From NCBI GenBank assembly GCA_013003535.1, contig JABDIY010000024.1, positions 1 through 64,000 of the forward strand: a stretch of DNA of 64,000 bases, read 5' to 3'. Shown piece by piece: positions 29,195 to 48,930 of this stretch. The stretch comes from Acidimicrobiales bacterium (lineage in GTDB: Bacteria > Actinomycetota > Acidimicrobiia > Acidimicrobiales > SZUA-35). Every line of letters begins with the position of its first letter. Position 1 is the stretch's first letter. The notes under the pieces were generated by a model. The model searched no databases. It had not been told where the DNA came from and saw only the letters and a program-made list of their open reading frames with translations. Made by a program: the position numbers and the translations under genes.

Positions 29195-30520
29195 CTAGAG
29201 CGAGTAGAGGCGGGGGAGCTCCAAGATGGCCGCCAACTCGTGGAGGGCCGCCGATGATTCCCGGGCCAGCGCCGGATCGGTCAAGTCGGCAGGGCTCAGC
29301 TCATCCCGGTAGTGCTCCCGCACCCACTGTTCCAGTTGGGCGAGCAACGCATCGTCTGCGAGAACCTTTCCGCTGAGTGCCTCCTGTTCGGCATCGGTGA
29401 GAACAACTCGGAGGCGAAGACACGCCGGCCCGCCGCCGTTTTGCATGCTCTCCTGAAGATCGAATGTTTGTACCCCGGCGATCGGGTTGGCTGGATCTGT
29501 CACTGCCCTGTCCAGATAGGCGGCCGTGGACTCGGTGGCCAAGACGTTGCTCGGGGCGATCAGCATCATCGTGCCGTTTGCCAACGTCACCAATTGGGAA
29601 TTGAACAAATAAGAAGAAATCGCATCGTGGAGCGGTACGGCGCTTTCGCTCACCTCGACAACGAGGGCATCGCCCAGTTGGCCATAGAGCTCCTCTGGCT
29701 GGTCGAAAGCATGTTCATGGGTGAAGAGGACATGCTGATTGACCACCGAGACAACGTCGTTGTGGAACGCTCCGGCGTCAATGGCGCGGGCGGACTGGCG
29801 GGCGAATATGACCCGGTCCGGGTCAAGACCGTGGCTGGTGCTGATCAACTCACCGGCCAGACGGCTCTGGCGCCGGGGGAAGCCGGTGGAGATCACGGGG
29901 TCCTCGGCGTCGCGCCCGTACACAAAGAGATGCGTTCCCTGCTTGTGGTGAGCGGCACTGAAACGACCGTGGTTGGCGGCCCCCTCGTCGGCGAAGGCGG
30001 CCGCCCCAGGCAGCGGGCGATGAACGCAGAAGCGCTCTTCTGATGCGAAGATCGTTCGGAGGATGTGGAAGGTCTGACGGGACTCGAATGACCGGTGTGT
30101 GGTTGAGCTCAAATTGGCGGGCGTGAAATGCACACGGCCATCGGCGGTGTCTGCCGATGGGGACACCGTGGCCGCATTGGCCGCCCACATCGGCGATGCC
30201 GACATCAAAAACGGCACCAGTGCTGGTTGCGTATCCGCAACCTCGCTCAGCGACACCGTTCCGCTGAATCCCAGCGATGCCAGAATCTCCGGGTCAGGCC
30301 GAATCTGCGGCGGGAGTATCCCTTGAGGAACCCCCAAATCTATCAGCGAGCGCATTTTCGCCAGCCCTTGAAGAGCGGCTCGACGCGGACTGGAGGTGGC
30401 CCCGGCGTTGCCCATCGAGGCCCGGTTCCCCAGTGAGAGACCGGCGTAGTTGTGCGTGGGACCCACAAGACCGTCGAAGTTGACCTCGGCCGCATTGGTG
30501 CTCCGTGGTGGTGAGCTCAC
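29195..30520 (-). CDS. astB: N-succinylarginine dihydrolase
   Basis: A 441-residue enzyme of the arginine succinyltransferase (AST) pathway that cleaves N2-succinylarginine to N2-succinylornithine, CO2 and two NH3. The N-terminal NFDGLVGPTHNYAGLSLGN is the family signature. The catalytic residues of the amidinotransferase fold are present: His in AFHNDVVSVVNQHVLF and nucleophile Cys367 in NGGGPACLRLRVVL. Length equals that of E. coli AstB (447). GTG start overlaps the astD stop by 4 nt. It is the last gene of the M20-astA-astD-astB unit. Confidence 0.96.
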   Translation of the reverse strand: MSSPPRSTNAAEVNFDGLVGPTHNYAGLSLGNRASMGNAGATSSPRRAALQGLAKMRSLIDLGVPQGILPPQIRPDPEILASLGFSGTVSLSEVADTQPALVPFLMSASPMWAANAATVSPSADTADGRVHFTPANLSSTTHRSFESRQTFHILRTIFASEERFCVHRPLPGAAAFADEGAANHGRFSAAHHKQGTHLFVYGRDAEDPVISTGFPRRQSRLAGELISTSHGLDPDRVIFARQSARAIDAGAFHNDVVSVVNQHVLFTHEHAFDQPEELYGQLGDALVVEVSESAVPLHDAISSYLFNSQLVTLANGTMMLIAPSNVLATESTAAYLDRAVTDPANPIAGVQTFDLQESMQNGGGPACLRLRVVLTDAEQEALSGKVLADDALLAQLEQWVREHYRDELSPADLTDPALARESSAALHELAAILELPRLYSL

Positions 30521-32010
30521 AGGGCCCCTCCCTGTATCTCGTTGGCCAAACCGGGCAGTGGCGAATCAGAGTCGGTGACCGAGGCATAGGTCACCATTGC
30601 CACTGGGTAGGAACAGAAGTCGGCGGCGGTCCAACCCGCGGGACGATGATTGCCGCTGGCGCCAACGCCGCCGAAGGGGAGTCGCCCCGACGCCCCGGTT
30701 GTGGGCGTGTTCCAGTTGATCACGCCCGCCCTGACGGTTTGCTGGAACTCTTGAAATTCTTCGGCGCTGGTACTGAGCAGTCCTGCTGCTAATCCGAAGT
30801 CGGTGGCTGTGGCCCGTCCAAACACTTCGTGCAAGTGCTCGAATCGCTGCACCGTAAGCACGGGCCCGAAGATTTCCTCATCGGGGATGGCGACGTGGTC
30901 GGCGTCGAGAATCGTTGGTCGCACGAAGCCGGTGCCGGGTATCGGTTCCCCCGGTCCGGTCAGTGCCGTTGCCCCGGATGCTACGAGATCGGTGATCGAA
31001 GCGCGAATGCTTGCCGCCGCCGCGGCGGAGACTACCGGTCCCAGAAACGGGGGTGGGTTGTCGTCGTACGCTCCAACTCTGAGGCGCATGGTGGTGTTTA
31101 CCAGGGCTTCTAGCAGATCATCCCCTTCAACCGAGCTGGGGATGTAGAGACGGCGAGCACATGTGCAGCGCTGCCCTGCAGTGAGGAAGGCCGAGCGGAT
31201 GATCGTGTTGACAGCAGCGCCAAGATCGTCCCAACTCGACGCTACGAGAGGATTGTTGCCACCCATCTCCAACGCCAAGAGGACATTTGGTCGATCGGCC
31301 AGCGCTCGGTGCAGGGCCCGTCCGGTGGCGACGCTGCCAGTGAAGGCGATCCCGTCCACGGCTCCGTCCACCAAAGCGGCGCCGACATCTCGCCCGCCGA
31401 TCACCAAGTTCAGTATCCCCGGCGGAAGGCCCGCCTTCTGAAGTAGATCCACATGGAATTGAGCGACCGCCGGGGTCAGTTCGCTGGGTTTGTAGACAAC
31501 GGCATTACCGGCCAAGAGCGCCGGGACGATCTGACCATTGGGTAGATGGGCTGGGAAGTTGAATGGTCCGAGTACGCCCATGACCCCGAGCGGGCGGTGG
31601 GAAAGTCGTGCTGTTTCGGAGAATTCCACGCTCGGCGTACGGTCTTTGTACGCCTCGATCGACAATGCCACCTTCCCCGCGACGGCGGCCACCTCTGTTG
31701 CCGCCTCCCATAGAGGCTTGCCCGTTTCACTGCTGATGAGAACTGCAAACTCCTCTTTGTTTTCGTTCACCAATTCTTCGAATCGGCGCAGAACCGCCTC
31801 CCGTTCATTCAGCGGAGTGTGGTCCCATGACGGCTGGGCCGAGCGGCTTGAGGCCAGGGCATCGGCCACGTCGCCGGCGGTGGCCTGGCCGGCCGACCAG
31901 ACGGTTCGACCGTCGGCGGGGTTGCCTGATGTCAGTTCCGGTCCTTTGCCCTGACGCCAGCGGCCGTCGATCGACACCGCCGAGGCTTCGGAATGCCCTT
32001 CTGAGATCAT
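30517..32010 (-). CDS. astD: N-succinylglutamate 5-semialdehyde dehydrogenase
   Basis: A 497-residue aldehyde dehydrogenase of the AST pathway that makes N-succinylglutamate with NAD+. The AstD-type cofactor motif VLGPFNFPAHLPNGQIVPAL (with FNFPAHLPNG) is typical, as are the Glu in LALEMGGNNPLV and Cys in TAGQRCTCARRLY. The ATG at 32010 overlaps the astA stop by 4 nt; a longer frame to 32121 would run inside astA. Its stop overlaps astB. A complete active site indicates a working enzyme. Confidence 0.95.
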   Translation of the reverse strand: MISEGHSEASAVSIDGRWRQGKGPELTSGNPADGRTVWSAGQATAGDVADALASSRSAQPSWDHTPLNEREAVLRRFEELVNENKEEFAVLISSETGKPLWEAATEVAAVAGKVALSIEAYKDRTPSVEFSETARLSHRPLGVMGVLGPFNFPAHLPNGQIVPALLAGNAVVYKPSELTPAVAQFHVDLLQKAGLPPGILNLVIGGRDVGAALVDGAVDGIAFTGSVATGRALHRALADRPNVLLALEMGGNNPLVASSWDDLGAAVNTIIRSAFLTAGQRCTCARRLYIPSSVEGDDLLEALVNTTMRLRVGAYDDNPPPFLGPVVSAAAAASIRASITDLVASGATALTGPGEPIPGTGFVRPTILDADHVAIPDEEIFGPVLTVQRFEHLHEVFGRATATDFGLAAGLLSTSAEEFQEFQQTVRAGVINWNTPTTGASGRLPFGGVGASGNHRPAGWTAADFCSYPVAMVTYASVTDSDSPLPGLANEIQGGAL

Positions 32011-33038
32011 GCTGGTCGTTCCAGTTGCGATGCGGCGAGAAGGGTTCCCTCCGTGGCCCCGAGGGCCGTGAGTGCCTCGGCGGCTATTCCGATCGCCGGG
32101 TCGTCGATCACGGCGTGACAACGTGTGACCCGGAATTCGGCGACGCTCGTGACCGACACCAATGCGTCCCGACCCTCTGTTCGGGCTTTTTCGTTTGTGA
32201 TGATTTGAGCAGGCGCGTGCCGATGGGTTTTCTTGGTGGTGAGTTGGTCGATCGAGGCGATCAGAGTGGGCCCACCGTCGATCGGGTCATACCGGCCGTT
32301 TGGTTCAAGACCTTCGCTGATGAGTAGGTGGAAGGCCGGCAGGGAGGCGGCGTTCACAGGGCCGAGGGACTCCAGTACCGGAGCCGTGAGGGGAAGCGTG
32401 TGGCCGGCCAACGCCTTCAGCTGGGAGGGGTCGGCGATCAACCCAAGCTCAGCGTCGATAGACGTCTTCCAATGGGGGGCAAAGTTTGATCCGAACCGGT
32501 CCCAGAACGGGGCGTGACCATCGGCGTCGACCCGGCCCCGCAGATGTGAGCTGATCGTAGTAGGGATCTGACTGCGGATGAGGTTCAAAAACACGAGTCG
32601 GCCCCGAGAAAGCAGCGTTCCCACCCGACGCCCTCGGGCATCGACGCCGAGAAAGCTGGAATTCAATTCGGTACGGGTCCATGGTTCGGAACTACTGCGC
32701 ATCACCAGACCGAGGCCATCCGGACTCGTGCCAACCCGGACCGACAGATCCGGAACCGATTGTTTGAAGGTGACACCGCTGATCCCGAGGGGTGTCCGGG
32801 TGACGGAATCGATGGCGAGAAACAACAGTCGTCGGTGCTCACCGTCGGCCAGCTGGAAGGAGCCGGTGGCCAGTTGAGCCAGCGTCTTGGCGCTGTGATC
32901 GCATAGTTCTTGGGTGGACTGGGGGGAGTCGGGTAGCGCGGTCATACCGATCGTTTCATCGACGGCATCACGGAGCAGTTCCCAGATTCCATCGGCGTCG
33001 GCGGCCCGTGCCGGGACGAGAACCACTTGGTTCTTCAT
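32007..33038 (-). CDS. astA: Arginine N-succinyltransferase
   Basis: A 343-residue enzyme of the AstA/AruFG family that transfers succinyl from succinyl-CoA to arginine, the first step of the AST pathway. Characteristic parts are VLVPARAADADGIWELL, the core SFLGVDARGRRVGTLLSRGR and SHLRGRVDADGHAPFWDRFG. Length is normal (344 in E. coli). A single astA rather than the split AruF/AruG pair of Pseudomonas is present. It overlaps the M20 gene upstream and astD downstream by 4 nt. Confidence 0.95.
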   Translation of the reverse strand: MKNQVVLVPARAADADGIWELLRDAVDETIGMTALPDSPQSTQELCDHSAKTLAQLATGSFQLADGEHRRLLFLAIDSVTRTPLGISGVTFKQSVPDLSVRVGTSPDGLGLVMRSSSEPWTRTELNSSFLGVDARGRRVGTLLSRGRLVFLNLIRSQIPTTISSHLRGRVDADGHAPFWDRFGSNFAPHWKTSIDAELGLIADPSQLKALAGHTLPLTAPVLESLGPVNAASLPAFHLLISEGLEPNGRYDPIDGGPTLIASIDQLTTKKTHRHAPAQIITNEKARTEGRDALVSVTSVAEFRVTRCHAVIDDPAIGIAAEALTALGATEGTLLAASQLERPA

Positions 33039-34228
33039 GCGACACTCCGTCGGTAGGCGCGCCGCAGGACTTCCACAACAACCGGAACGCGCTCCGCGAT
33101 GCTGCCCACTTCCGCGAACTCCTGCGAGCTGTGGATGTTTCCGCCGCAGATGCCGAGGCTGTCCACGTTGGGCAAGCCCGCTGCAGCTAGGTCATTGCCG
33201 TCGCAACAGCCGCCGGTATCCTCGGCGGCGATCTGAAGCCCCGCTTCGTCGGCGGCGCTGGCCACGTCGGCGAGAAGTTGATCCAGCGCGGGGGTTCGGG
33301 GCTTCGGGTCTCGACTCGAGCCCCAGATGAGCTCGATCTCCAGTTCGTGGGCGGCGGCCGTTCGGGCGGTGACCCGCTCGAACTGCTGGCGAATCCAGGC
33401 GCTGTCTTCGGCTGTGCCGACGCGCAGGTTGAAAGCCCCCATGGCGAAGTCGGGGACCACGTTGGTCGGTCCGCCACCCGAAATCCGACCGAAGTTGACG
33501 GTGACACCGTCGCGCTCGTTCAGCTCCTCCAGCGTGTCGATGAGTCGAGCCAGACCCCGCACGGCGGAGCGACCTTCGTGGTGGGCTCGACCGGCGTGAG
33601 CTGCTCGGCCGCGGACAACGGTGTGGCCGTTGAGCGTTCCCTTCCTCGCCCCGGCCACACCGCCCGATGGCAATGCCGGCTCGAAGCCAAGGCCGATGTT
33701 GCACCGGCCGGCTGCGGCCCGGAGAAGTGGTTGCGAGCCAACCGAGCCGACCTCCTCATCCGGGACAACCAGGAATTCCCAGCCGATCTGTTGGCCCCAC
33801 TCCACCGTTTCTACGTGGCGAAGGACCTCGGTGGCCAGCACCAGACCGCCCTTGCAGTCGGCCACGCCAGGCCCGTGAAGTCTGTGATTTGAAACAGCTA
33901 CGGTCTGGAACGGATGCTCGGCTGGAAACACTGTGTCCAAATGACCGAAGAGGCAAACTTGAAAAGGGGTGTCAGCCCGTTTGGTAACACGAAGGGCGTT
34001 GCCGACCGGGCGGCTGGTTTGCTCCCCGTTTTCAGTCACTATCGGCGTCGGGTCAACGGGAACCATCTCCACCCGATCGGGCCGCAATGCTTCCACCTGC
34101 TCAGCGAGGCGTTCAGCGCAGCGGTTGACGCCGTCGGGATTGTGCGTTCCGGAGTTGATCTCGGCAAGCGCAACGACGTTGGCGATGAGTTCGTCGAGTC
34201 TTCCGGTGAGCTGCTCCCGCAGGGTCAT
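33035..34228 (-). CDS. M20-family metallohydrolase, candidate N-succinylglutamate desuccinylase
   Basis: A 397-residue zinc peptidase/deacylase of the M20 (CPG2/ArgE-like) family. Metal and catalytic motifs: FGHLDTVFPA (His, Asp), GPGVADCKGGLVLATEVL (bridging Asp), VVPDEEVGS (catalytic Glu pair) and a late NIHSSQEF (His). It is the first gene of the AST operon and overlaps astA by 4 nt. In E. coli the last AST step uses AstE, an unrelated M14-type enzyme. This M20 enzyme most likely replaces it and frees succinate from N-succinylglutamate (inference). ATG at 34228 is chosen; upstream in-frame sequence reads into the promoter of the fur gene. Confidence 0.88.
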   Translation of the reverse strand: MTLREQLTGRLDELIANVVALAEINSGTHNPDGVNRCAERLAEQVEALRPDRVEMVPVDPTPIVTENGEQTSRPVGNALRVTKRADTPFQVCLFGHLDTVFPAEHPFQTVAVSNHRLHGPGVADCKGGLVLATEVLRHVETVEWGQQIGWEFLVVPDEEVGSVGSQPLLRAAAGRCNIGLGFEPALPSGGVAGARKGTLNGHTVVRGRAAHAGRAHHEGRSAVRGLARLIDTLEELNERDGVTVNFGRISGGGPTNVVPDFAMGAFNLRVGTAEDSAWIRQQFERVTARTAAAHELEIELIWGSSRDPKPRTPALDQLLADVASAADEAGLQIAAEDTGGCCDGNDLAAAGLPNVDSLGICGGNIHSSQEFAEVGSIAERVPVVVEVLRRAYRRSVA

Positions 34229-34300: not shown

Positions 34301-34765
34301 GTGAACACCGAACCGGCTGAACTCCTTCGCTCCGGTGGTCATCGCGTTACCGACGCCCGGCTTCGGGTGTGGAGTGTGCTAGCCGATGCCACGGACCACC
34401 TCACCGCCGAAGAGGTTGCGGCTGCTGTTGGTGAGGTGGACCCATCGATCAACCTGGCCTCGGTCTACCGGTCTTTGGCGTTGTTCGAAGAGATGGGGGC
34501 CGTACGACAATCCCGGCTGGGTTCAGAGCGCGTGTCGTATTGGGAGCTCGGTCATCCGGACGAGCACTTCCACCTGGTCTGCCGAGTGTGCGGGTCAGTT
34601 GATCATCATCGCGGTTCCCTGGTAGGCCCCGTGCTGGAACATTTACGAGACGGCCATGGGTTCGCGGTGGAACGGATCGAGCTCACAGTGACCGGAGTCT
34701 GCACGGCCTGCGGACCGTTGCCGAACACGGGCGAAAACGCAGCGGGCTCCGAGTCACAAGAGTGA
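34301..34765 (+). CDS. Fur-family transcriptional regulator
   Basis: A 154-residue protein. A winged-helix DNA-binding part (GHRVTDARLRVWSVLADAT to ASVYRSLALFEEMGAVRQ) is followed by the metal-binding dimerisation part HPDEHFHLVCRVCGSVDHH (CxxC zinc site) and a second CTAC. It could be Fur, Zur or PerR; the motifs alone do not decide. GTG at 34301 (or 34298) is the start, as the N-terminus before the HTH is about 12 residues. It is divergent from the AST operon and shares its 72-nt control gap, so cross-regulation is possible. Confidence 0.85.
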   Translation: MNTEPAELLRSGGHRVTDARLRVWSVLADATDHLTAEEVAAAVGEVDPSINLASVYRSLALFEEMGAVRQSRLGSERVSYWELGHPDEHFHLVCRVCGSVDHHRGSLVGPVLEHLRDGHGFAVERIELTVTGVCTACGPLPNTGENAAGSESQE

Positions 34766-38589: not shown

Positions 38590-39690
38590 CTAACCCTTTG
38601 CTCGGCTGAAGGCGTCCGCGTAGTTCGTCTCGAAGTCGCCTGTGTCGATGATGGACTCCAGTGTTTCCTGCCCACCGGTCAAGACCGTGGGGTCGGTGAG
38701 GAATGCGTTGAGTTCCTCATCGAGCAAGTCGATGGACGCACTGTTCGGCGTGCCGTAGTAGTTCCAGTTACTCAATGCCGCGCCCTGCTCGCCATCCAAC
38801 AACCAGTTGATGAACGTGTGAGCGGTGCATGGATGCGGCGCATCAAATGGGATGGCCATGTTGTCTATCCAGCGTGTGCCGCCTTCTTCGGGTACGAAGA
38901 ACACGTACCGGCTGGGATCGTCGGTTTCGAGGAACTGGGTGAACATGTCGCCGGAGTAACCGTGGGCGATGGCGGTTTCGCCGCTGGTGATGAGCTCGTC
39001 GCCGGAATCAGTGTTGAAGGCGGCGAGGTTGTCTTTGTATTCCGATACGAGCGCCTGCGCTTCGTCCAGTTGGCTTTGGTCGGTGGTGTTCAGTGAGTAC
39101 CCGAGGCTCTTGAGCGCCGCTCCGAGGGTTTCGCGCGGATCATCCAACAGGGTGATTCGTCCGCTGTAGTCAGCGGCGAAATCGCTGAACACGATGTCCC
39201 ACGAGCGGGGGAAATCGGTTCCGACCACTTCGGTGTCTACGGCGATGCCCGTGTAGCCCCATTGATAGGGAACTGCGTAGCTGCCATCGGGGTCATAGCT
39301 CGGGTTCGCAAAGTCTGGGGAAACGTTGCTCAAATTGGGGATGAGATCCTTGTTCAGCGCCTGGACATGTTCGCCGGCGATGAGAATGCCCACCATGTAG
39401 TCCGAGGGAACGATCACGTCGTAGCCGGAGTTTCCTGCGGCAATCTTGGGCTGGAGGACTTCGTTGGACTCGTAGGTGTCCATGGTGGCGCTGATTCCGT
39501 ATTCGGCGGCGAACTCATCCAGCTGTTCTTCGTCGATGTATTCGGCCCAGTTGTAGAGGGCGAGGTCGCCGTCTACCTGACCGACTTCGCAGGACCCGGC
39601 CGCGCTATCGCCACCGTCGGATCCACAGGCGGTGGCCAAGAAGCTGAGCGCTAAAAGGATTCCGACGGTTGCTTTCCCATTTGACTTCAT
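38590..39690 (-). CDS. potD: Polyamine-type ABC transporter, substrate-binding lipoprotein
   Basis: A 366-residue exported lipoprotein with lipobox LATAC. The mature part is PotD-like: LALYNWAEYIDEEQLDEFAA, GYDVIVPSDYMVGILI, and the aromatic/acidic groove segments GYSGDMFTQFL and EGGTRWIDNMAIP (Trp, Asp). The family binds putrescine or spermidine; here the operon also carries agmatinase, so agmatine is possible. It is the last gene, separated from potC by a stem-loop and with its own AGGGAG site, typical of the excess of binding protein over membrane parts. Confidence 0.9.
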   Translation of the reverse strand: MKSNGKATVGILLALSFLATACGSDGGDSAAGSCEVGQVDGDLALYNWAEYIDEEQLDEFAAEYGISATMDTYESNEVLQPKIAAGNSGYDVIVPSDYMVGILIAGEHVQALNKDLIPNLSNVSPDFANPSYDPDGSYAVPYQWGYTGIAVDTEVVGTDFPRSWDIVFSDFAADYSGRITLLDDPRETLGAALKSLGYSLNTTDQSQLDEAQALVSEYKDNLAAFNTDSGDELITSGETAIAHGYSGDMFTQFLETDDPSRYVFFVPEEGGTRWIDNMAIPFDAPHPCTAHTFINWLLDGEQGAALSNWNYYGTPNSASIDLLDEELNAFLTDPTVLTGGQETLESIIDTGDFETNYADAFSRAKG

Positions 39691-39742
39691 TCTCGTTGTT
39701 CTCCCTGATTGGTTCTGGGTGGGGCCCCGCCTAGCCCCGGAG

Positions 39743-39781
39743 CATTCTGGCACATCGGGACACGGGGAAAGTGGCAGAATG
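39743..39781 (-). promoter_or_regulatory. Stem-loop between potC and potD
   Basis: CATTCTGGCAC (39743-39753) pairs with GTGGCAGAATG (39771-39781), 10 of 11 positions, with a 17-nt loop. It lies between the potC stop and the potD start on the transcript. Such an element can stabilise or partly terminate mRNA and set different amounts of permease and binding protein. No U-run follows, so I do not call it a terminator. Confidence 0.45.
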
Positions 39782-39813
39782 CGATGATCGGCGGTGTTGT
39801 AATATTTGGCTTT

Positions 39814-40641
39814 TCAGGCTTCAGAGCCGCGATCCCCGCGTGCCCGTTCGGCCAGAAGCGACAACGCTACGAGGCCCATCGAGGCGATGAGCATGATCAC
39901 CGAAATCGCATTGATGAGCGGGGTTACACCCTTTCGGATCAGGCCGAACACGAAAACCGGAAGGGTGGTCCAGCCGGGGCCGGTGACGAATTCGGTAATA
40001 ACAACATCGTCTAGCGACAGCGTAAATGCCAACAACGCACCACCTGTGATACCCGGCATGATCGCCGGCAATGTGACATACCGGAAGGCCTGTCGACGGG
40101 TTGCGTAGAGATCCATGGCCGCCTCCTCCAACTGTTCGCTCATGCCCGATATTCGAGCTCGCACCACGATGGAGACGAAACTGATACTGAAGGCGATGTG
40201 GCTCAGCGTGATGGTTGCAAAGCCTTTGGAGAATCCGAACAGCGATGCTGCCTCCGCGAAGAAGAGGAGCAGCATGACGGCCATTGTGACGTCGGGAACG
40301 ATTACTGGCAGGTAGAGCAGAGCGTCGAAGAACGCGCGGCCGCGGAACCGGTAACGTTCGATCGCGAGGGCCGACATGGTTCCAAGAACAACGGCAACGA
40401 CGGTGGAGGCAACCGCAACCTTGAGGGAGTTGGTCAGCGCTCCCTTGGCCTGACGCGAGTTTCCGAAGTCCTCGTACCAGTCCAGGGTGAATCCGCCCCA
40501 CACTCCAACGTTGCGGCTATCGCTGAAGGAGTAGATTACCAGCACGACGATGGGTGCGTAGAAGAACAAATACACGAGCCAGGCATTGGCTGCCAAGAGC
40601 CTTCCTGTCTTCCCGGTTGGCCGCACCACCGACCCACTCAT
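39814..40641 (-). CDS. potC: Polyamine-type ABC transporter, permease C
   Basis: A 275-residue permease with six helices. The N-terminal FYAPIVVLVIYSFSDSRNVG is PotC-like and the EAA loop reads EQLEEAAMDLYATRRQAFRYVTL, which docks to the ATPase. The ATG at 40641 is the first start with family alignment; a longer frame to 40800 covers a repeat and potB sequence. A 115-nt gap containing repeat copy 2 separates it from potB. Confidence 0.93.
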   Translation of the reverse strand: MSGSVVRPTGKTGRLLAANAWLVYLFFYAPIVVLVIYSFSDSRNVGVWGGFTLDWYEDFGNSRQAKGALTNSLKVAVASTVVAVVLGTMSALAIERYRFRGRAFFDALLYLPVIVPDVTMAVMLLLFFAEAASLFGFSKGFATITLSHIAFSISFVSIVVRARISGMSEQLEEAAMDLYATRRQAFRYVTLPAIMPGITGGALLAFTLSLDDVVITEFVTGPGWTTLPVFVFGLIRKGVTPLINAISVIMLIASMGLVALSLLAERARGDRGSEA

Positions 40642-40702
40642 CGCGACCCCCTGGAGGGATGATCTGCGTTGAGCGGACCAGCTCGGTGTCCGCCAAGGCA
40701 TC

Positions 40703-40754
40703 TGTTGTAGGCCGAAGGCAGAGCCTCCGTGGCGTTTGAACGGCTCCCGGAGGG
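40703..40754 (-). repeat. Intergenic palindromic repeat, copy 2
   Basis: Reverse-strand copy of the element at 10118-10168 (about 44 of 52 positions). It starts 2 nt after the potB stop codon in the direction of transcription, as copy 1 starts 17 nt after its upstream gene's stop in the same sense. CCTCCG can again pair with CGGAGG and GCCG with CGGC, in the same interleaved order. It lies inside the pot operon, between potB and potC. Confidence 0.7.
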
Positions 40755-40756
40755 AA

Positions 40757-41650
40757 TCATAATGTGCGCCCGCCCTTGCGGAAGTAGATGAGCGTGGCAC
40801 TGAGCATCACGATCATGAGAACGAAGGACAGGGCGGCGCCGAAGGGGAAGTCTCGAGCTGATAGAAACTGCGTCACGATGTAGCTACCGAGGAGAGTGGT
40901 CTTCGCTCCACCCAGAATCGATGGGGTGACGTATGCCCCCAGGGAAGGCACGAAAACCAGTATGGATCCGGCGATGACGCCGGGCATCGAGAGCGGCAGC
41001 AGAATCCGTCTGAACGTTCCGAATCCGGTGGCGTAGAGGTCTCTGCTGGCTTCCAACAGTCGAGGGTCCACTCGTTCGATCGACGCGTAAAGCGGCAAGA
41101 TCATGAACGGCAGGAATCCGTAGACCAGACCCAACACCACGGCAACCTGGGTGAAAAGGAGCCGGCCCGAACCTAGACCGACCGCGGATGTTAGTTGGGA
41201 GTAGGGCCCGTCGGTTCCGAGGATTACCCGCCATGCATAGGTGCGGACAAGGAAGTTGGTCCAGAAGGGAATCATCACGAAGACCAGCATCAAGTTTCGG
41301 GTTCGTTCGCTTCGAGTCGCCATGTAGTAGCTGAACGGATACGCCAGCACGAGGCACACGACCGTGGTGAGCAGTGCCAGCCACGCAGACCGAAAAAGTA
41401 CGTCTCGAACCAAATCGTCGCCGAGGCGACGGTACGAGTTGAGGTTCCAGCCGCTCAGGTCGGTCCCGAATCGAGTCCGGGTGGCGAAGGAGTACACCAC
41501 CACGATCCCAAACGGGATCACGAAGAAGATGATCAGATAGAGATAGGCCGGCAACGCCAGCAAGGCGCCCCGACGGCGTCGTAGCCGCTCGTTGGAGTGC
41601 TCGAATTCGGGCGTCACCGCCTCGGCGATCGTCTCCACGGTGGTGGCCAT
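40757..41650 (-). CDS. potB: Polyamine-type ABC transporter, permease B
   Basis: A 297-residue permease with six helices. The N-terminus GALLALPAYLYLIIFFVIPF and the EAA loop DPRLLEASRDLYATGFGTFR are PotB/PotH-like, and FWTNFLVRTYAWRVILG is a typical helix-3 segment. The start at 41650 shares a base with the potA stop (TGATG). It forms the membrane channel with potC. The repeat copy 2 follows its stop by 2 nt. Confidence 0.93.
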   Translation of the reverse strand: MATTVETIAEAVTPEFEHSNERLRRRRGALLALPAYLYLIIFFVIPFGIVVVYSFATRTRFGTDLSGWNLNSYRRLGDDLVRDVLFRSAWLALLTTVVCLVLAYPFSYYMATRSERTRNLMLVFVMIPFWTNFLVRTYAWRVILGTDGPYSQLTSAVGLGSGRLLFTQVAVVLGLVYGFLPFMILPLYASIERVDPRLLEASRDLYATGFGTFRRILLPLSMPGVIAGSILVFVPSLGAYVTPSILGGAKTTLLGSYIVTQFLSARDFPFGAALSFVLMIVMLSATLIYFRKGGRTL

Positions 41651-42735
41651 CAGTCCGCCACCACGCTGGCGCCCGTGTCGAGCCAGGTGAGAGCCACGTT
41701 GGTGCCAGGATTGAGCCGAGCAACCGAGGGCCGGTTCTCGGTTCGAACCTCCACCTCCATCCAATCGATGGCGACGGTGTACGCCAGCGAGTTCCCCATA
41801 TACGTGACGTCGCGAATGACGCCGTTGAGTCCGCGTCCGTCGGTCCCGGGCTGCGCTTCATTGTCGCCTCGGTCTCTGATGATGATGCGCTCGGGGCGGA
41901 GACTCAACGCCACCTTGGTGCCCGCGGTGTGCCTGGACGGGGCGGCGACGGCCGAGCCGTTGGCTAAGACGACCGTCTCGCTGTCGCGGACCGTGCCGTC
42001 GAGGAAGTTTGTCTGACCGATGAAGTCGGCGACGAAGCGGTTGGCTGGATGCTCATAGATTTCGTCCGGAGAACCCACCTGTAGCAACTTGCCGTGATCC
42101 ATCACCGCGATACGGTCGCTCATGGTCAGCGCTTCCTCTTGATCGTGGGTGACGAAGACGAAGCTGACGCCAAGCTCTCGCTGTAGCTCCTTCAGCTCGT
42201 GCTGCATTTCCTGCCGCAGTTTGAGATCGAGGGCTCCAAGTGGCTCGTCCAACAGGAGCACTTTGGGGCGATTCACCAATGCCCGGGCCAACGCCACGCG
42301 CTGCTGTTGACCACCGGAGAGCTGGTTGGGTTTACGCTTTTCCATTCCGCCGAGGCGAACCATCTCGATCGCCTCGCGGGCTCGCTGGGCAGCCTCGCCC
42401 TTGTCAACTCCCTGCATCCGCAGCCCGAAGCTGGCGTTGTCGAGGACATTCATGTGGGGGAAGAGTGCGTAGTTCTGGAAGACCGTATTGACCGGTCGTT
42501 TGTTCGGCGGGAGCGTGCCCACCTCGTCGCCGAAGATCTTGAGACTGCCCTGGGTGGGGAATTCCAGGCCGGCAATCATGCGTAACGTGGTGGTTTTTCC
42601 GCAGCCCGAGGGTCCGAGCATGGCGAAGAACTCGCCGTCGGCAATCCGGAGATCAATCGTGTCGACGGCGATGACGTCGTCGAATCGTTTGGTGACTCCG
42701 GTCAGTTCAACCGCCGGGTTCTTGATGTCTTCCAT
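41650..42735 (-). CDS. potA: Polyamine-type ABC transporter, ATP-binding subunit
   Basis: A 361-residue ATPase. Walker A GPSGCGKTTTLR, Q-loop VNTVFQNYALFPHMNV, signature NQLSGGQQQRVALARAL, Walker B LLLDEPLGALD and the switch His in THDQEEALTMSD. A C-terminal TOBE/regulatory domain follows (VALSLRPERIIIRD). It powers uptake by PotB/PotC/PotD. The ATG at 42735 has AGGGGA 9 nt before it. The gene follows agmatinase by 14 nt. Confidence 0.95.
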   Translation of the reverse strand: MEDIKNPAVELTGVTKRFDDVIAVDTIDLRIADGEFFAMLGPSGCGKTTTLRMIAGLEFPTQGSLKIFGDEVGTLPPNKRPVNTVFQNYALFPHMNVLDNASFGLRMQGVDKGEAAQRAREAIEMVRLGGMEKRKPNQLSGGQQQRVALARALVNRPKVLLLDEPLGALDLKLRQEMQHELKELQRELGVSFVFVTHDQEEALTMSDRIAVMDHGKLLQVGSPDEIYEHPANRFVADFIGQTNFLDGTVRDSETVVLANGSAVAAPSRHTAGTKVALSLRPERIIIRDRGDNEAQPGTDGRGLNGVIRDVTYMGNSLAYTVAIDWMEVEVRTENRPSVARLNPGTNVALTWLDTGASVVAD

Positions 42736-42749
42736 GGTTTGTGAATCCC

Positions 42750-43736
42750 CTATTGCCTGCCGTAGGGGACGATGGCTGCCCCCTTCTGCATAGCGATCAG
42801 ACAAAGGTAGTCGTGGGCGATGGTGGCGGCCGCAATTGCGGTGATTTCCGACAGGTCGTAGGCCGGTGCCACCTCCACCACGTCGAATCCCACCAAGTTC
42901 AATCCGGTGAGGCCCCGAATGGCGTCGAAGGCTTGGGACGTCGAGAGACCACCAGCGACCGGAGTGCCAGTGCCGGGTGCGAATGCTGGGTCGAGGCAGT
43001 CGATATCGAACGTGACATAGGCAGGGTGGTTGCCGACCTTCTCACGGATCACCTCGAGCACTGCGGGAATCCCTTCTCGATGCACCCACGGTGTGGTGAG
43101 AACCGTGAACCCGTGATCGGAAGAGTTCGGTGTGCGAATGCCGGTCTGCACCGACCTCTCGGGAACGATGATGCCCTCCCTCTTTGCCCGCAGGAACATG
43201 GAGCCATGATCGAGTCGAACGCCGTCGTCTCCCCAGGTGTCGGAGTGGGCGTCGAAGTGAATGAGCGCGAGCGGTCCGTGTTTCTTGGCGTGGGCTCGAA
43301 GCAACGGGTACGTGACGAAGTGGTCGCCGCCGAAGGAAATCAGGGTGGCTCCGCTGGAGAGGATCTCGTGGGCGTGGGCCTCGATGCGTTCCACCACCTG
43401 CATTGGATGTCCATAGTCGAGGTAACAGTCGCCATAATCGGCGATGGCCAGCTCCTGGAGCGGGTCGAACCCAAATGGGTAGCCGGGCAGTTCCGCCAGC
43501 CCTGTGGACGCTTCGCGGATAGCCCGGGGACCGAATCGGGCCCCCGGCCGGCCTGATGTTGCTTGATCGAACGGGAAGCCAGTGATGACCACGTCGGCGT
43601 CACCGATCTCGCGAGAGTAGTTTCGCCGCAGGAACGACAATGCGCCGGCATAAGGTGCTTCGTCGCCCGGTCCTTTCAGTCCTTTGCGCCGGAATGCCTG
43701 GTCACCGTCCAGCGGACCGCTCAGATGTTGGCTCAT
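42750..43736 (-). CDS. speB: Agmatinase
   Basis: A 328-residue ureohydrolase that would convert agmatine to putrescine and urea. The binuclear Mn site is complete: SFGGDHFVTYP, HFDAHSDTWGDD and FDIDCLDPAFAPGTGTPVAG. The length, RPGARFGPRAIREAS motif and operon context fit agmatinase better than arginase, but guanidinobutyrase or another guanidino acid substrate cannot be excluded. The start at 43736 overlaps the GNAT stop by 4 nt. Role here: turn imported agmatine into putrescine for the downstream amine pathway. Confidence 0.88.
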   Translation of the reverse strand: MSQHLSGPLDGDQAFRRKGLKGPGDEAPYAGALSFLRRNYSREIGDADVVITGFPFDQATSGRPGARFGPRAIREASTGLAELPGYPFGFDPLQELAIADYGDCYLDYGHPMQVVERIEAHAHEILSSGATLISFGGDHFVTYPLLRAHAKKHGPLALIHFDAHSDTWGDDGVRLDHGSMFLRAKREGIIVPERSVQTGIRTPNSSDHGFTVLTTPWVHREGIPAVLEVIREKVGNHPAYVTFDIDCLDPAFAPGTGTPVAGGLSTSQAFDAIRGLTGLNLVGFDVVEVAPAYDLSEITAIAAATIAHDYLCLIAMQKGAAIVPYGRQ

Positions 43737-44425
43737 TCCTCGTTCAGTCCTTCGCTTCCGCCGGGCGGGCGGGAAGGCTCGTAATCGGGATTGTGCCACA
43801 CGATCATCGACGCGTAGTTGTTGACTGCCGGGTCTTTGATGTAGTCGCTCAGAGCACAGAGCACCTCGAACCCATTTTCCAACTGAAAGGAGAGGGTGGG
43901 GTCATACAGGTTGCCAGCTCGGACCTCGTTGATGTACTCATCGGCAGTGAGGGAGTCAACGTGGGCGGCGTAACCGGGAATAACTCCGCCAGCAACCAAC
44001 CCCCGCAGGTTGAGGTCTCGGCAGACCCGTTTCCGGAGCTGGTAAAGCTCATTGCCGATGCCCCGACGGCGGTAGTCGGCTTGCACGGCGATCCCGCTTC
44101 CGTAATACCATTGGCCAGTGGGGATGTGTCCACTGCTCCCGTCGTCGGGAATGATCTCGGAGATCTTGTGTTGGGGATGATCCAGATCGAAATTGGTGCG
44201 CACCCCCACCCCCATCGCGACGAGTCGCTCGTTGTCGAAACCGGCGAAACAGCCGTTTGGAAAGTCCTCGGCGAGGCGAGTGATGCCTTGGGCATCGTAA
44301 AGATCCACGGGATCGGCGGTGGGGTACGACGCCTGCTCGAGGGCCGCTATTTCCTCGGCCCATTCCACCGTGATGGTGAAGTAGCGGAGCCCGGACCGTT
44401 CGCCGATCATCACCGGCTCACTCAT
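43733..44425 (-). CDS. GNAT-family acyltransferase in the agmatine operon
   Basis: A 230-residue GNAT protein with the acetyl-CoA loop VQADYRRRGIGNELYQLRK and a following conserved segment LRGLVAGGVIPGYAAHVDSL. This type, with the GGVIPGY motif, also occurs as the N- or C-domain of GNAT-nitrilase fusions (family memory). It might acylate a polyamine or agmatine, or a related amine. It overlaps the C45 gene by 8 nt and agmatinase by 4 nt, so a shared pathway is likely, though the reaction is inferred. Confidence 0.85.
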   Translation of the reverse strand: MSEPVMIGERSGLRYFTITVEWAEEIAALEQASYPTADPVDLYDAQGITRLAEDFPNGCFAGFDNERLVAMGVGVRTNFDLDHPQHKISEIIPDDGSSGHIPTGQWYYGSGIAVQADYRRRGIGNELYQLRKRVCRDLNLRGLVAGGVIPGYAAHVDSLTADEYINEVRAGNLYDPTLSFQLENGFEVLCALSDYIKDPAVNNYASMIVWHNPDYEPSRPPGGSEGLNEE

Positions 44426-45530
44426 CCGTGGCCCCTACGGACATGGGCGAGACCAACTCGAAGTCGTTGGTTGTGGGCAGTCCCCAACACGCCCAAAACT
44501 GCCCAGTGGCAGGTCGCATGACCGCAGCCCCGCTGGATTCGATGTGATACGGGTCCATCGCAACCTGACAGATCGCGTCGGGCTCGCGCAGCAAATCGAA
44601 GAGGCGATGTTCATCGACCGGGCCGTCAGATAACAGTTGTTCCGCTGTGTCTCGCCGTTTGAAGGAACTGGCCATGAGGGCGTTCGCCTTTTCGGCCTGC
44701 TTGGCCTTGGCTTCCCGGTCGATCACATGGTTGGTGTGCACAATGGCCGTCGCCTCGTCTAGTGCGGTGACGGGTCGGATCGATGGCATCGCTTCAACGT
44801 TGTAGCCACGGCCCGTCTTGTCGAGGATCAGATAGTTGTGGGCCCCGGCAAGATTTGCGCCGAGCAACACCGCAAGAGCATCGTCGGCCGATTCAGTGCC
44901 GAGCATTCCGCGGACTACTGACGGCCAGGTGACGCCAGGTGTTCCGTCGAGAGCGGTGAGGTTGTTGATCCCAACGCAAAGGCCGGCCTCATTCATCCCG
45001 ATCTGACCAAGGCAACCAGTCGTGGTGAACACCGTGACGGCAGGTCGGTCGGTGGGTTGGAGCCGCATGAGCAGAACGTGGTCGGTTGCACTGTCGTGCA
45101 TGTCCCAGGTTTGGGCCAAGAAACCATGCCCGTTGGCTCGGGCATTGGGGATGATGACGGCGGTGCAATCGTCTTCCTGAACCGATGCGGGAATGTCACC
45201 GCCCACTTCAGCTCGAACGGCATCAACGAAGTCAGTGAAACCACCCCCAATGATTGCCTCGGCCGGCGTGATCCCTGCTGCGGCTGCCATGGCCACCATC
45301 TCGGTATGAAGCGCTGCATCGAATGCTTCGTGTTTGGCGACCATGGCCTCAGCGATCGCCAGCACGTGGGCTCTATCGATCGGGCCGCCGCTCCAGAGAC
45401 CGGAGGTGACAAGGTCGATGCGGTCTTGGGTGTAGTGAACGATCTCGTGGGCATACGCAGTGCCGTGCGCCGCGCCGATCGCCTCGGGTGACCCGGCGGC
45501 ATCGAGAATGCGGATAGCTGGTCGCTGCAT
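44418..45530 (-). CDS. C45-family (penicillin acyltransferase-like) N-acyl amidase
   Basis: A 370-residue protein of the self-processing NTN-hydrolase group (isopenicillin N acyltransferase type). The conserved nucleophile region is QEDDCTAVIIPNARANG, where Cys should become the new N-terminus after cleavage. Later segments FLAQTWDMHDSATDHVLLMR and QIGMNEAGLCVGINNLTA are typical of the family. It may cut or make an acyl-amine bond; as first gene of an agmatine/polyamine operon it may release an amine from an acyl conjugate. ATG at 45530 is the best start. Confidence 0.8.
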   Translation of the reverse strand: MQRPAIRILDAAGSPEAIGAAHGTAYAHEIVHYTQDRIDLVTSGLWSGGPIDRAHVLAIAEAMVAKHEAFDAALHTEMVAMAAAAGITPAEAIIGGGFTDFVDAVRAEVGGDIPASVQEDDCTAVIIPNARANGHGFLAQTWDMHDSATDHVLLMRLQPTDRPAVTVFTTTGCLGQIGMNEAGLCVGINNLTALDGTPGVTWPSVVRGMLGTESADDALAVLLGANLAGAHNYLILDKTGRGYNVEAMPSIRPVTALDEATAIVHTNHVIDREAKAKQAEKANALMASSFKRRDTAEQLLSDGPVDEHRLFDLLREPDAICQVAMDPYHIESSGAAVMRPATGQFWACWGLPTTNDFELVSPMSVGATDE

Positions 45531-46008
45531 GGATTTCCAAGTTACTACCACCAAGAAGGGCAAGTTCATTTTGTCGAAGTGGGGTGCGCTGCTGGCGGTC
45601 AAGGATGAGGCCCGGATGTTCGGGCACCACCCTTCGATGATTTTCGACCCCGTAACTCCCTCAGCGCAGCCCAGTGTCTGTCGAGTAAGGGGGAGGAGAG
45701 CAGGGTTTCTCTCAGCAGCTGACTGTGCCTGCGATGCTGTTCATGCCTTCACCAATACCGGTGAGTGTGAGTTGCGATCGCACACCGAGCGTTCCCTTGT
45801 TGGGTAGTGAATGCTGAACGTTGCGGCTGAGACCCGTAAGAAAATTACCCGAGCCCTCGTTGAACCAGACGACCGTTCCGTAGCCGCAACCTTCAACGAG
45901 GCCAGTGAAGGTGAGTGTTCCCCGGAACTGGAAATCGAGATTCTTGTTAGGTGGTTTCAGCCCGCTGTACAAACGATTGTCCTGTTCGCGGTGTGCCGTC
46001 GACCGCGC
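45531..46008. other. Gene-poor stretch (478 nt) upstream of the agmatine operon
   Basis: Located between the start of the C45 gene and the end of the ABC-F gene, both minus-strand. It must hold the promoter of the pot operon, but I find no convincing -10/-35. It contains the candidate small gene 45712-45972. Confidence 0.5.
45712..45972 (-). CDS. Candidate small or broken secreted-type protein
   Basis: An 86-residue frame with a beta-rich look: LDFQFRGTLTFTGLVEGCGYG, GVRSQLTLTGIGEGMNSIAG and a last Cys. The alternating hydrophobic pattern and two Cys residues suggest the end of a secreted beta-sandwich protein. It starts at a TTG with no ribosome site and no signal peptide, so it may be a truncated remnant. 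Not recognised. Confidence 0.3.
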   Translation of the reverse strand: MYSGLKPPNKNLDFQFRGTLTFTGLVEGCGYGTVVWFNEGSGNFLTGLSRNVQHSLPNKGTLGVRSQLTLTGIGEGMNSIAGTVSC

Positions 46009-47646
46009 TTACCTCGTGAGCTTCTTCGCGAACTTGAGTGACGAGACGTTGTTCGGTTTGCTGAGAGCGGCCATGGCGATCTCAAAATCGGGAAGTGAGT
46101 AGACGTCGCCGTCGTCGTTGATCATCACGAATCGATCCAGCCGAGCCAGGAAGGTGCGGTCGTGGCTGACGGCGATAACCGTTCCTTGGAACCCGTCGAG
46201 TGCCAGTTCCAATGCTTCGGAAGACTCGATGTCCAGGTTGTCGGTTGGTTCGTCGAGCAGGAGAACGTTGTGTCCTTCCAGTTCGAGGCAGAGGATTTCG
46301 AGCCGGGCTTTCTGACCACCGGACATCGTTTCGAATTCTTGGCGAGCGTTGTTGCCGAGGCCGTACCGGGCGAGCCGTTTCATAGCCTGTTCATCGTCGG
46401 GAACCCGATCGCGAACGATGTCCACAGCGTCTCGACCCAAGAAGTCCGGTCGATCATTGATCTGGGTGAACGTTCCGATGGAAGTCCTCGGCCCCAACCT
46501 GATCGAGCCGAGGTCGGGGCTGGTTTCTCCGGCGAGCGCTCGAAGCAGGTGGGTTTTTCCAGTGCCGTTGGGCCCGATCAGGCCCACCCGCTCACCGAAG
46601 TGCACCTCGTCACTGAACGGGAAAAAGAGGTCTGCCACCGAGACGTCCTTTAGCACCAGCACCCGGCGAGCCGAATCTGCGCCGCGTAGGTTCACGTGGA
46701 TGTTCTGGTCATTCACTGGCGGTGGCGGCGGACCGGCCGCTACAAATTTCTCCCAGCGCGTTTCAGCAGCGTTGGCCTTGGTGGCGTTCTTGAAGTTCTG
46801 CGCCGCTCGCGCTTTCATCACTTTCATGTGGGCATAGAGGCGACGTTCTTCGTCGTTCCATCGTTTGAGAGCGTTGCCCAACAACCTCTGGCGTTGAGCC
46901 CGAGCATCCGGGAATGTGGCATAAGAACCGCCGTGGACCCAGCATCCTGATCCCTCGATGACCACGATCTTGTTGGCGCATCGCTCCAGGAGCGAGCGGT
47001 CATGACTGACCATGAGGATGGTTTTGTCGCTGGCGGCCAGCTGGTTCTCCAGCCAAACGCGAGTCGGGATGTCCAGGTAGTTGTCCGGCTCATCGAGCAG
47101 AAGCACGTCGGCCGTGGAGTTGAAGAGCAGGTCCAGAACCAGCCGCTTTCGCTCCCCGCCTGAGAGATCGCCGATGCGGCGAGTGTTGAGATCCTCTACG
47201 GAGCTCTTGATGCTGCGCTCAACGGCGGCCGCCCATTGTGACTCCAGCTCGTACCCGCCAAGGTCGCCCCACTCGGTGATCGCTTCGGCGAAGGCCATGC
47301 CGTCGTCGGACCCATCGAGCATTGCTTCTTCGGCTGCGATCATCTTCCGACCGGCGGTGCGGAGTTCCGGTAGGGCCACCTCGAGGAGCATGTCTCGAAT
47401 TGTGCTGTCCGGTCGTGACATGCCGACGTCCTGGGTCATGGTGAGCATGGTGCCGCCCACCGCAAACTCCCCCTCGTCGGGAATGAGCTCACCGCTGAGG
47501 ATCCGTAGAATCGTACTCTTGCCCACCCCGTTCGCACCTACCAAGGCTGCTCGGTCGCCGGGCGCGATTCCGAAACTGATGTCGAAAAACAACGAGTCGG
47601 AGGCGGGTGGGGCGTATTCGAGTTCAGAGACCGTGATGCTGGGCAA
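46009..47646 (-). CDS. ABC-F family ATPase
   Basis: A 545-residue protein with two ATPase domains and no membrane part: Walker A GANGVGKST and GPNGTGKTH, signatures DLSGGERKRLVLD and TMSGGQKARLEI, Walker B VLLLDEPDNYLDIP and VLLLDEPTDNLDIE, with a charged linker (RLLGNALKRWNDEERRLYAH). ABC-F proteins bind ribosomes and rescue stalled or antibiotic-blocked translation (family knowledge). The start is a TTG at 47646. It lies on the same strand as, and upstream of, the pot operon, with 478 nt between them. Confidence 0.92.
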   Translation of the reverse strand: MPSITVSELEYAPPASDSLFFDISFGIAPGDRAALVGANGVGKSTILRILSGELIPDEGEFAVGGTMLTMTQDVGMSRPDSTIRDMLLEVALPELRTAGRKMIAAEEAMLDGSDDGMAFAEAITEWGDLGGYELESQWAAAVERSIKSSVEDLNTRRIGDLSGGERKRLVLDLLFNSTADVLLLDEPDNYLDIPTRVWLENQLAASDKTILMVSHDRSLLERCANKIVVIEGSGCWVHGGSYATFPDARAQRQRLLGNALKRWNDEERRLYAHMKVMKARAAQNFKNATKANAAETRWEKFVAAGPPPPPVNDQNIHVNLRGADSARRVLVLKDVSVADLFFPFSDEVHFGERVGLIGPNGTGKTHLLRALAGETSPDLGSIRLGPRTSIGTFTQINDRPDFLGRDAVDIVRDRVPDDEQAMKRLARYGLGNNARQEFETMSGGQKARLEILCLELEGHNVLLLDEPTDNLDIESSEALELALDGFQGTVIAVSHDRTFLARLDRFVMINDDGDVYSLPDFEIAMAALSKPNNVSSLKFAKKLTR

Positions 47647-47702
47647 GTCTTCAGTGTGCCATGTCTACGTGACCGTCCTGGTTGAGGATGTACTGTCTGG
47701 AA

Positions 47703-48917
47703 ATGGCCAACTCAGGTGCTCTCCTCCAACCGTTCTCTGACCCGGCGAAGCCCCACGATCAGTTCATCAAAGTCGTGAAAGCCGAGGGAACCACGCTCTG
47801 GGATGCCAACGGGAAGAAGTACTTGGATGGCATGGCCAGTCTCTGGTATTGCCAGGTCGGCCATGGCCGGAGTGAGATGGTGGAAGCGATCACCAAACAA
47901 CTCATGGCGACCGATGCCTACCACGTGTTCGATCCGTTCATCAATCAGCCGGCCATCGACGTTGCCGACGCAATCATCGCCCGTTCGCCCTATGACACCG
48001 GCAGGGTTTTCCTGGGTTGTTCAGGCTCTGAGGCCATCGATACCGCGTTCAAGCTGATTCGTCTGGTGCAGCGCGTCCGCGGCCATGAAGACAAGCAGAT
48101 CGTGATTCGCAGAACGCGGGGCTATCACGGCACCAATGTTGGGGGCACAAGTGCGCAGGGCATCGAGAGTAACCGGGTGGGGTGGGGAGATCTGGTGCCG
48201 CACTTCATCGAAGTCGACCCTGATGACGTCGAAGACGCCGCCAGGGTGTTTGCCGAGCACGGCGATCGGATCGCCGGCGTGATCACCGAACCGATCCAGG
48301 GAGCCGGTGGCGTCTACCCGCCGCCGGAGGGGTACCTTGAGGGGCTTCGCAAACTCTGCACCAAACACGGTGCGATTCTGTGTTTTGACGAGGTGATTGC
48401 GGGTTTTGCGCGGACTGGCGATTGGTTCGGAGCCCAAACCTACGGCGTTACGCCAGACATGTTCACTTTCGCGAAAGGCGTGTCGTCCGGATACCAGCCG
48501 TTGTCTGGCGTTGCCATCGGTCCGGAGGTGTCGGCGGCGCTGGAAGGCATGGGTGCCATGTTGCGCCACGGCTACACCTATTCCGGTCATCCGGCCGCAT
48601 GCGCCGCCGGGCTCAAGAACATCGAACTGATCGAGGAGTGGGGACTGATTGAGCGCGCCAACCACATCGGAGAGCTGTTCAAATCCGGGTTCCAGTCTCT
48701 TGTCGATGATGGAGCAATCCTCAGTTACCGGGGCGTTGGGGCCATATGGGCTGCCATATTGCCGTACGAGGCGGCCGAAGTTCGGGTCCGAATGTTGGAC
48801 CGGGGCGTTGTCGTTCGGCCGATCCTTGATGCGGTGGCGTTCTGCCCGCCGCTCACCTCCACCGATGAAGAGATCGGGCAGATGATCGATGTCATGGCCG
48901 ACTCGCTAAACAAATGA
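47703..48917 (+). CDS. Class III omega-aminotransferase (putrescine/beta-alanine:pyruvate type)
   Basis: A 404-residue PLP enzyme. The PLP lysine is in FTFAKGVSSGYQPLSGVA, the cofactor-phosphate region is GCSGSEAIDTAFKLIR, and the PLP-ring Asp is in CFDEVIAGFARTG. The N-terminal SLWYCQVGHGRSEMVEAITK matches omega-amino acid:pyruvate and putrescine aminotransferases rather than AstC/ArgD. It may convert putrescine to 4-aminobutanal in this amine-catabolic neighbourhood. ATG at 47703 is preferred to a TTG at 47682. It is divergent from the ABC-F gene. Confidence 0.88.
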   Translation: MANSGALLQPFSDPAKPHDQFIKVVKAEGTTLWDANGKKYLDGMASLWYCQVGHGRSEMVEAITKQLMATDAYHVFDPFINQPAIDVADAIIARSPYDTGRVFLGCSGSEAIDTAFKLIRLVQRVRGHEDKQIVIRRTRGYHGTNVGGTSAQGIESNRVGWGDLVPHFIEVDPDDVEDAARVFAEHGDRIAGVITEPIQGAGGVYPPPEGYLEGLRKLCTKHGAILCFDEVIAGFARTGDWFGAQTYGVTPDMFTFAKGVSSGYQPLSGVAIGPEVSAALEGMGAMLRHGYTYSGHPAACAAGLKNIELIEEWGLIERANHIGELFKSGFQSLVDDGAILSYRGVGAIWAAILPYEAAEVRVRMLDRGVVVRPILDAVAFCPPLTSTDEEIGQMIDVMADSLNK

Positions 48918-48930
48918 TCGTAGGATCAAC

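Follow-up and report, generated by a model that had tools for sequence, protein, structure and literature searches.

Which enzyme completes the AST pathway of arginine catabolism when the gene for its last enzyme, the M14-type hydrolase AstE, is missing from an otherwise recognisable operon? The question is raised by a locus of an Acidimicrobiales bacterium (GCA_013003535.1), located in the 64,000-nucleotide stretch of contig JABDIY010000024.1 (positions 1 to 64,000) that was analysed here as a whole and is referred to as the window. The first gene of this operon encodes a hydrolase of the M20 superfamily, which is most likely a dinuclear-zinc N-succinylglutamate desuccinylase and a non-orthologous replacement of AstE.

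The operon and its missing enzymes

All four genes lie on the minus strand. The M20 hydrolase, a member of the NF005602 family and the proposed N-succinylglutamate desuccinylase replacing AstE (33035..34228, 397 aa, starting at the ATG at 34228), is followed by an AstA-like arginine N-succinyltransferase (32007..33038), the succinylglutamate-semialdehyde dehydrogenase AstD (30517..32010, counted from an internal ATG of an ORF that extends to 32121 at its longest) and the N-succinylarginine dihydrolase AstB (29195..30520). The four ORFs are open and overlap by 4 nt at every junction, so the coordinates bear out the operon M20-astA-astD-astB that the first-pass annotation had described. AstD scores above its cut-off (TIGR03240, 602 bits) and shares 48% identity with the E. 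coli enzyme. AstB is likewise 48% identical to E. coli AstB and reaches 584 bits on the Pfam AstB model while also exceeding the NF009789 cut-off; its residues E179, H253 and C367 align with E174, H248 and C365 of E. coli AstB, which we take to be the catalytic residues, and judged by this alignment the catalytic E/H/C set of the window AstB is intact. The AstA-like protein has diverged more than AstB and AstD, being 31% identical to its E. coli counterpart across 301 columns and reaching 119 bits on the Pfam AstA model, a score that lies above the Pfam gathering score and below the TIGR03244 equivalog cut-off.

Divergent from the operon, a Fur-like regulator, recognised by eye from its sequence, is encoded on the plus strand at about 34301-34765, its start lying about 70 nt from that of the M20 gene. 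Further along, positions 38590-50346 hold a putative polyamine island with a PotABCD-like ABC transporter, an agmatinase-family enzyme (42750-43799), a C45 autoproteolytic acyltransferase/hydrolase (44418-45602), an omega-aminotransferase-like enzyme (47682-48917) and an FAD oxidoreductase (48931-50346).

The first-pass annotation had also reported that astE and astC are missing from the operon, and had named an astE elsewhere in the genome as the finding that would count against its proposal. In the genome assembly (4.0 Mb, 221 contigs, 95.8% complete), PF04952 gave no match for AstE, nor did TIGR03242 even at E <= 10. The genome encodes several class-III aminotransferases, none of which scores above the AstC cut-off, the best being an ArgD-like protein with 322 bits on the AstC model versus a cut-off of 610. 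The aminotransferase of the putative polyamine island was considered as AstC and rejected, as omega-aminotransferase-type models fit it better and it obtains 173 bits on the AstC model. Since AstC is missing from it, the operon does not by itself make up a complete route to succinylglutamate, and a dual-function ArgD has to be assumed. In the proposed pathway, AstA would succinylate arginine, AstB would take off the guanidino group, and the dual-function ArgD-type aminotransferase would produce the semialdehyde, which AstD would oxidise to succinylglutamate.

A CPG2-like M20 protein

The window M20 protein belongs to NF005602/PRK07338 (407 bits versus a cut-off of 357), a family named only 'hydrolase' in NCBIfam and whose record gives neither substrate nor pathway. 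It remains below the cut-off of the glutamate carboxypeptidase model PRK06133 (164 versus 349 bits) and far below those for DapE (TIGR01900, gram-positive type, 66 versus 304 bits) and ArgE (TIGR01892, 55 versus 298 bits). The metal motifs GHLDTV, GVADCKGG and DEEVGS pointed out in the first reading of the sequence are all found in the protein, which possesses the five metal ligands, the catalytic Glu and the dimerisation domain of an M20 metallohydrolase. Across 49 AST-linked M20 sequences the metal-binding positions are invariant. R214 and K309 are likewise invariant in all 49 and missing in five non-AST relatives, a comparison from which the non-AST row L023 was left out because it is apparently in the wrong reading frame, while R195 and K196 are common to both groups. 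The two extra positive charges contributed by R214 and K309 would suit a substrate with three carboxylates.

An AlphaFold model built from the 49 AST-linked sequences has a mean pLDDT of 96.8. Carboxypeptidase G2 (CPG2) ranks first in the sequence-profile search, in Foldseek and in VIA-align, where it reaches a Z score of 43.8 and the next families, DapE among them, score 36 and below. H211, N256, R269 and R306 of the M20 protein align with conserved CPG2 residues. CPG2 is known to act on N-acyl-glutamates and to free glutamate, which would also be the leaving group when succinylglutamate is cleaved. By the proposed mechanism, the M20 enzyme would convert N-succinylglutamate and water into glutamate and succinate, cutting the amide with two zinc ions held by H96, D124, E159, E183 and H366, with E158 as the general base. 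R306, which aligns with a conserved CPG2 arginine, would hold the alpha-carboxylate of glutamate. The extra carboxylates, on the succinyl group and the glutamate side chain, would be bound by R214 and K309, which are specific to the subfamily.

Mutual exclusion of M20 and AstE

Across bacterial and archaeal genomes, the M20 protein has at least 563 relatives. Among the best 80 of these, nearly all with enough flanking sequence sit in AST operons, which come from Acidimicrobiia, Oceanospirillaceae, Endozoicomonas, Nevskia and its relatives, and many Alphaproteobacteria; all NF005602 matches that exceed 340 bits in the window organism's own family adjoin AstA, AstB or AstD. About 30 of the 80 loci also carry AstC, mostly upstream of M20 and usually with 55-60% identity to E. 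coli AstC, so that in the recurring gene set AstC-M20-AstA-(AstA)-AstD-AstB the sole absent member is AstE. Caulobacter vibrioides, included as a named control, has AstB, AstD and M20 and lacks AstE. The proposed replacement is not a quirk of the window's genome, and hundreds of proteobacteria too appear to complete the pathway with the M20 enzyme. Two contexts deviate from the common layout: a contig labelled Candidatus Melainabacteria (L101), a label that may reflect a binning error or a transfer, carries M20 and AstB together with AstA and AstD in opposite orientation, and in L012 and L031 a second aldehyde dehydrogenase with 31% identity to the window's AstD adjoins M20, the true AstD being located on another contig (G034:C178).

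An evenly drawn set of 398 Pseudomonadota genomes contained 102 with AstB and 36 with M20, and 35 of these 36 also have AstB. Scoring for AstE and M20 covered 80 of the 102 AstB-bearing genomes and revealed AstE only in 50, M20 only in 29, both in none and neither in one (Fisher p about 6e-21, a statistic that ignores shared ancestry). In 27 of the 29 M20-bearing genomes, the M20 and AstB genes share a strand and are less than 9 kb apart. AstD is above cut-off in all 29, in about a dozen of them elsewhere in the genome, so succinylglutamate must be made there. These results support the non-orthologous replacement of AstE put forward in the first-pass annotation. The single genome with neither enzyme, of 1.9 Mb, is also without AstD, and its AstB (G459:C2:73516-74772) may serve another pathway.

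Two other explanations for the missing AstE bear on these counts. One is that AstE is present but was overlooked through genome incompleteness or excessive divergence; this could be argued from the 221-contig, 95.8% complete assembly and from faint TIGR03242 hits, none above 42 bits, in 5 of 45 further genomes with an M20 operon. However, none of these 45 genomes, cultured strains included, has an AstE above cut-off, whereas the same type of search gives a strong match in 50 of the 80 AstB-bearing genomes, and E. coli AstE used as query matches nothing in the 80 AST loci, which makes an overlooked AstE barely conceivable. The other explanation regards M20 as an ArgE-, DapE- or dipeptidase-like hydrolase that is merely linked to the operon while an unrelated, unrecognised enzyme performs the last step. 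The M20 superfamily is functionally broad and Foldseek also returns DapE, ArgE and carnosinases for the model, but the window protein falls far short of the cut-offs for ArgE and DapE, and the linkage conserved across three classes, Acidimicrobiia, Alphaproteobacteria and Gammaproteobacteria, the one-for-one exclusion with AstE and the start/stop overlap within the operon render such a bystander role very unlikely.

It is therefore highly probable that the operon encodes the AST pathway with a CPG2-like M20 enzyme carrying out the last step instead of the M14-type AstE. Gene content, operon structure, the absence of AstE, the exclusivity, the co-occurrence with AstD, the fold and the conserved residues are observations from which we infer the substrate, what each residue does and the use of ArgD as AstC.

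AstD-less clusters, ancestry and known systems

The picture is more complicated in some other Acidimicrobiia. AstD (E <= 1e-90) is absent in 12 of 22 entries of this class, some genomes being entered twice under different handles, and one of the AstD-less genomes, G032, is 98% complete. M20 occurs with AstB, with or without AstA, in the AstD-less L028, L183, L014, L016, L018-L021, L030, L032, L033 and L035. In L028 and L183, a threonine/serine-dehydratase-like PLP enzyme (PRK06815/EutB-related; L028:6849-7943, L183:6766-7803) lies directly upstream of M20-AstA-AstB, while in L032 and L035, where no AstA was found in the locus, a guanine-deaminase-like amidohydrolase (L032:1908-3275, L035:3815-5125) directly precedes M20-AstB. 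R214 and K309 are retained in the sampled M20 proteins of AstD-less genomes. An M20 that accompanies AstB without AstD does not fit a role restricted to succinylglutamate; in these genomes the enzyme may free ornithine from succinylornithine, or AstD may also have been replaced, and the clusters possibly represent a shortened route for arginine or another guanidino compound. The window is untouched by this complication, as it has AstD.

Taken as the general function of the family, a desuccinylase for N-succinylornithine (or for N-alpha-succinyl amino acids at large) would release ornithine early and bypass AstC, AstD and AstE. ArgE and DapE are known M20 deacylases that act on ornithine- and diaminopimelate-type substrates, which lends this idea some plausibility, as does the position of M20 beside AstA and AstB, or AstB alone, in several AstD-less Acidimicrobiia including the 98% complete G032. 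Nevertheless, AstD would be useless under such a scheme and yet is kept in the window and in 29 of 29 M20-bearing Pseudomonadota, AstC is also kept in many M20 operons, AstE is never found alongside M20, and the nearest fold is that of CPG2, which releases glutamate, with ArgE and DapE ranking behind it. As an account of the family it is thus improbable. A tentative wider reading would combine both activities: M20 as a widespread, independently recruited N-succinylglutamate desuccinylase that was swapped with AstE more than once and, in AstD-less Acidimicrobiia, was repurposed into a shortened, undescribed AstA-AstB-M20 route from arginine to ornithine with release of the succinyl group.

Within Gammaproteobacteria, the AstB tree places operons of the AstE type among those of the M20 type, and its well-supported branches force at least four label changes for the latter and two for the former. 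This nesting indicates that the last-step enzyme was exchanged between pathways that are otherwise close relatives; the direction of the exchange is not settled by the tree, as its AstE-type rows were mostly picked by score. In the M20 tree, 20 Acidimicrobiia members group together with strong support, and the divergent L013 and L017 stand apart. The AST-linked group has a support of 0.64 and the tree was rooted with only six outgroup rows, a weak deep placement from which no single origin of the AST-linked M20 proteins is claimed. Among 296 sampled Actinomycetota genomes, AstB occurs only in that of the window, with same-family relatives also having it, which agrees with the earlier remark that the AST pathway is unusual in actinomycete-like genomes. 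The pathway may have been acquired horizontally.

In the main texts of openly licensed papers, no published statement that M20 replaces AstE was found, although a prior assignment at the database level is possible; the GapMind papers treat AST and succinylated arginine biosynthesis without mention of such a replacement, and the literature yielded no assay or mutant phenotype for any member of the M20 family. The family was already known as a 'hydrolase' annotated without a function name, and the AST role is newly proposed here. This would provide a likely substrate for NF005602 and fill an apparent gap at the last step of arginine catabolism in AST genomes without AstE (29 of the 80 AstB-bearing Pseudomonadota sampled). 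It would also constitute a clear and easily tested non-orthologous replacement, present in the culturable model organism Caulobacter as well, and it places the AST pathway in one family of Actinomycetota.

Among known systems, Bacteroides BT3549, the proposed N-succinylcitrulline desuccinylase of arginine biosynthesis (PMC7311316), resembles the window M20 in being a DapE-related enzyme assigned to a succinylated arginine intermediate, but belongs to biosynthesis instead of catabolism and has a different substrate. The succinyl-diaminopimelate desuccinylase DapE shares the M20 fold and the removal of an N-succinyl group, whereas the window protein scores far under the DapE cut-offs and matches the DapE fold clearly less well than that of CPG2. 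CPG2, itself an M20 glutamate carboxypeptidase, is the top match among solved structures by fold and sequence, and its metal residues align, as does the arginine of the RP motif; in contrast, the identity is about 22% and CPG2 has other residues at R195-K196, R214 and K309, which are invariant in the AST-linked family. The AST pathway of E. coli and Pseudomonas (astCADBE / aru) has homologues of AstA, AstD and AstB in the start/stop-overlapping window operon, and the chemistry would be equal up to succinylglutamate, the difference being that the window operon lacks AstC and the M14-type AstE and carries an M20 hydrolase.
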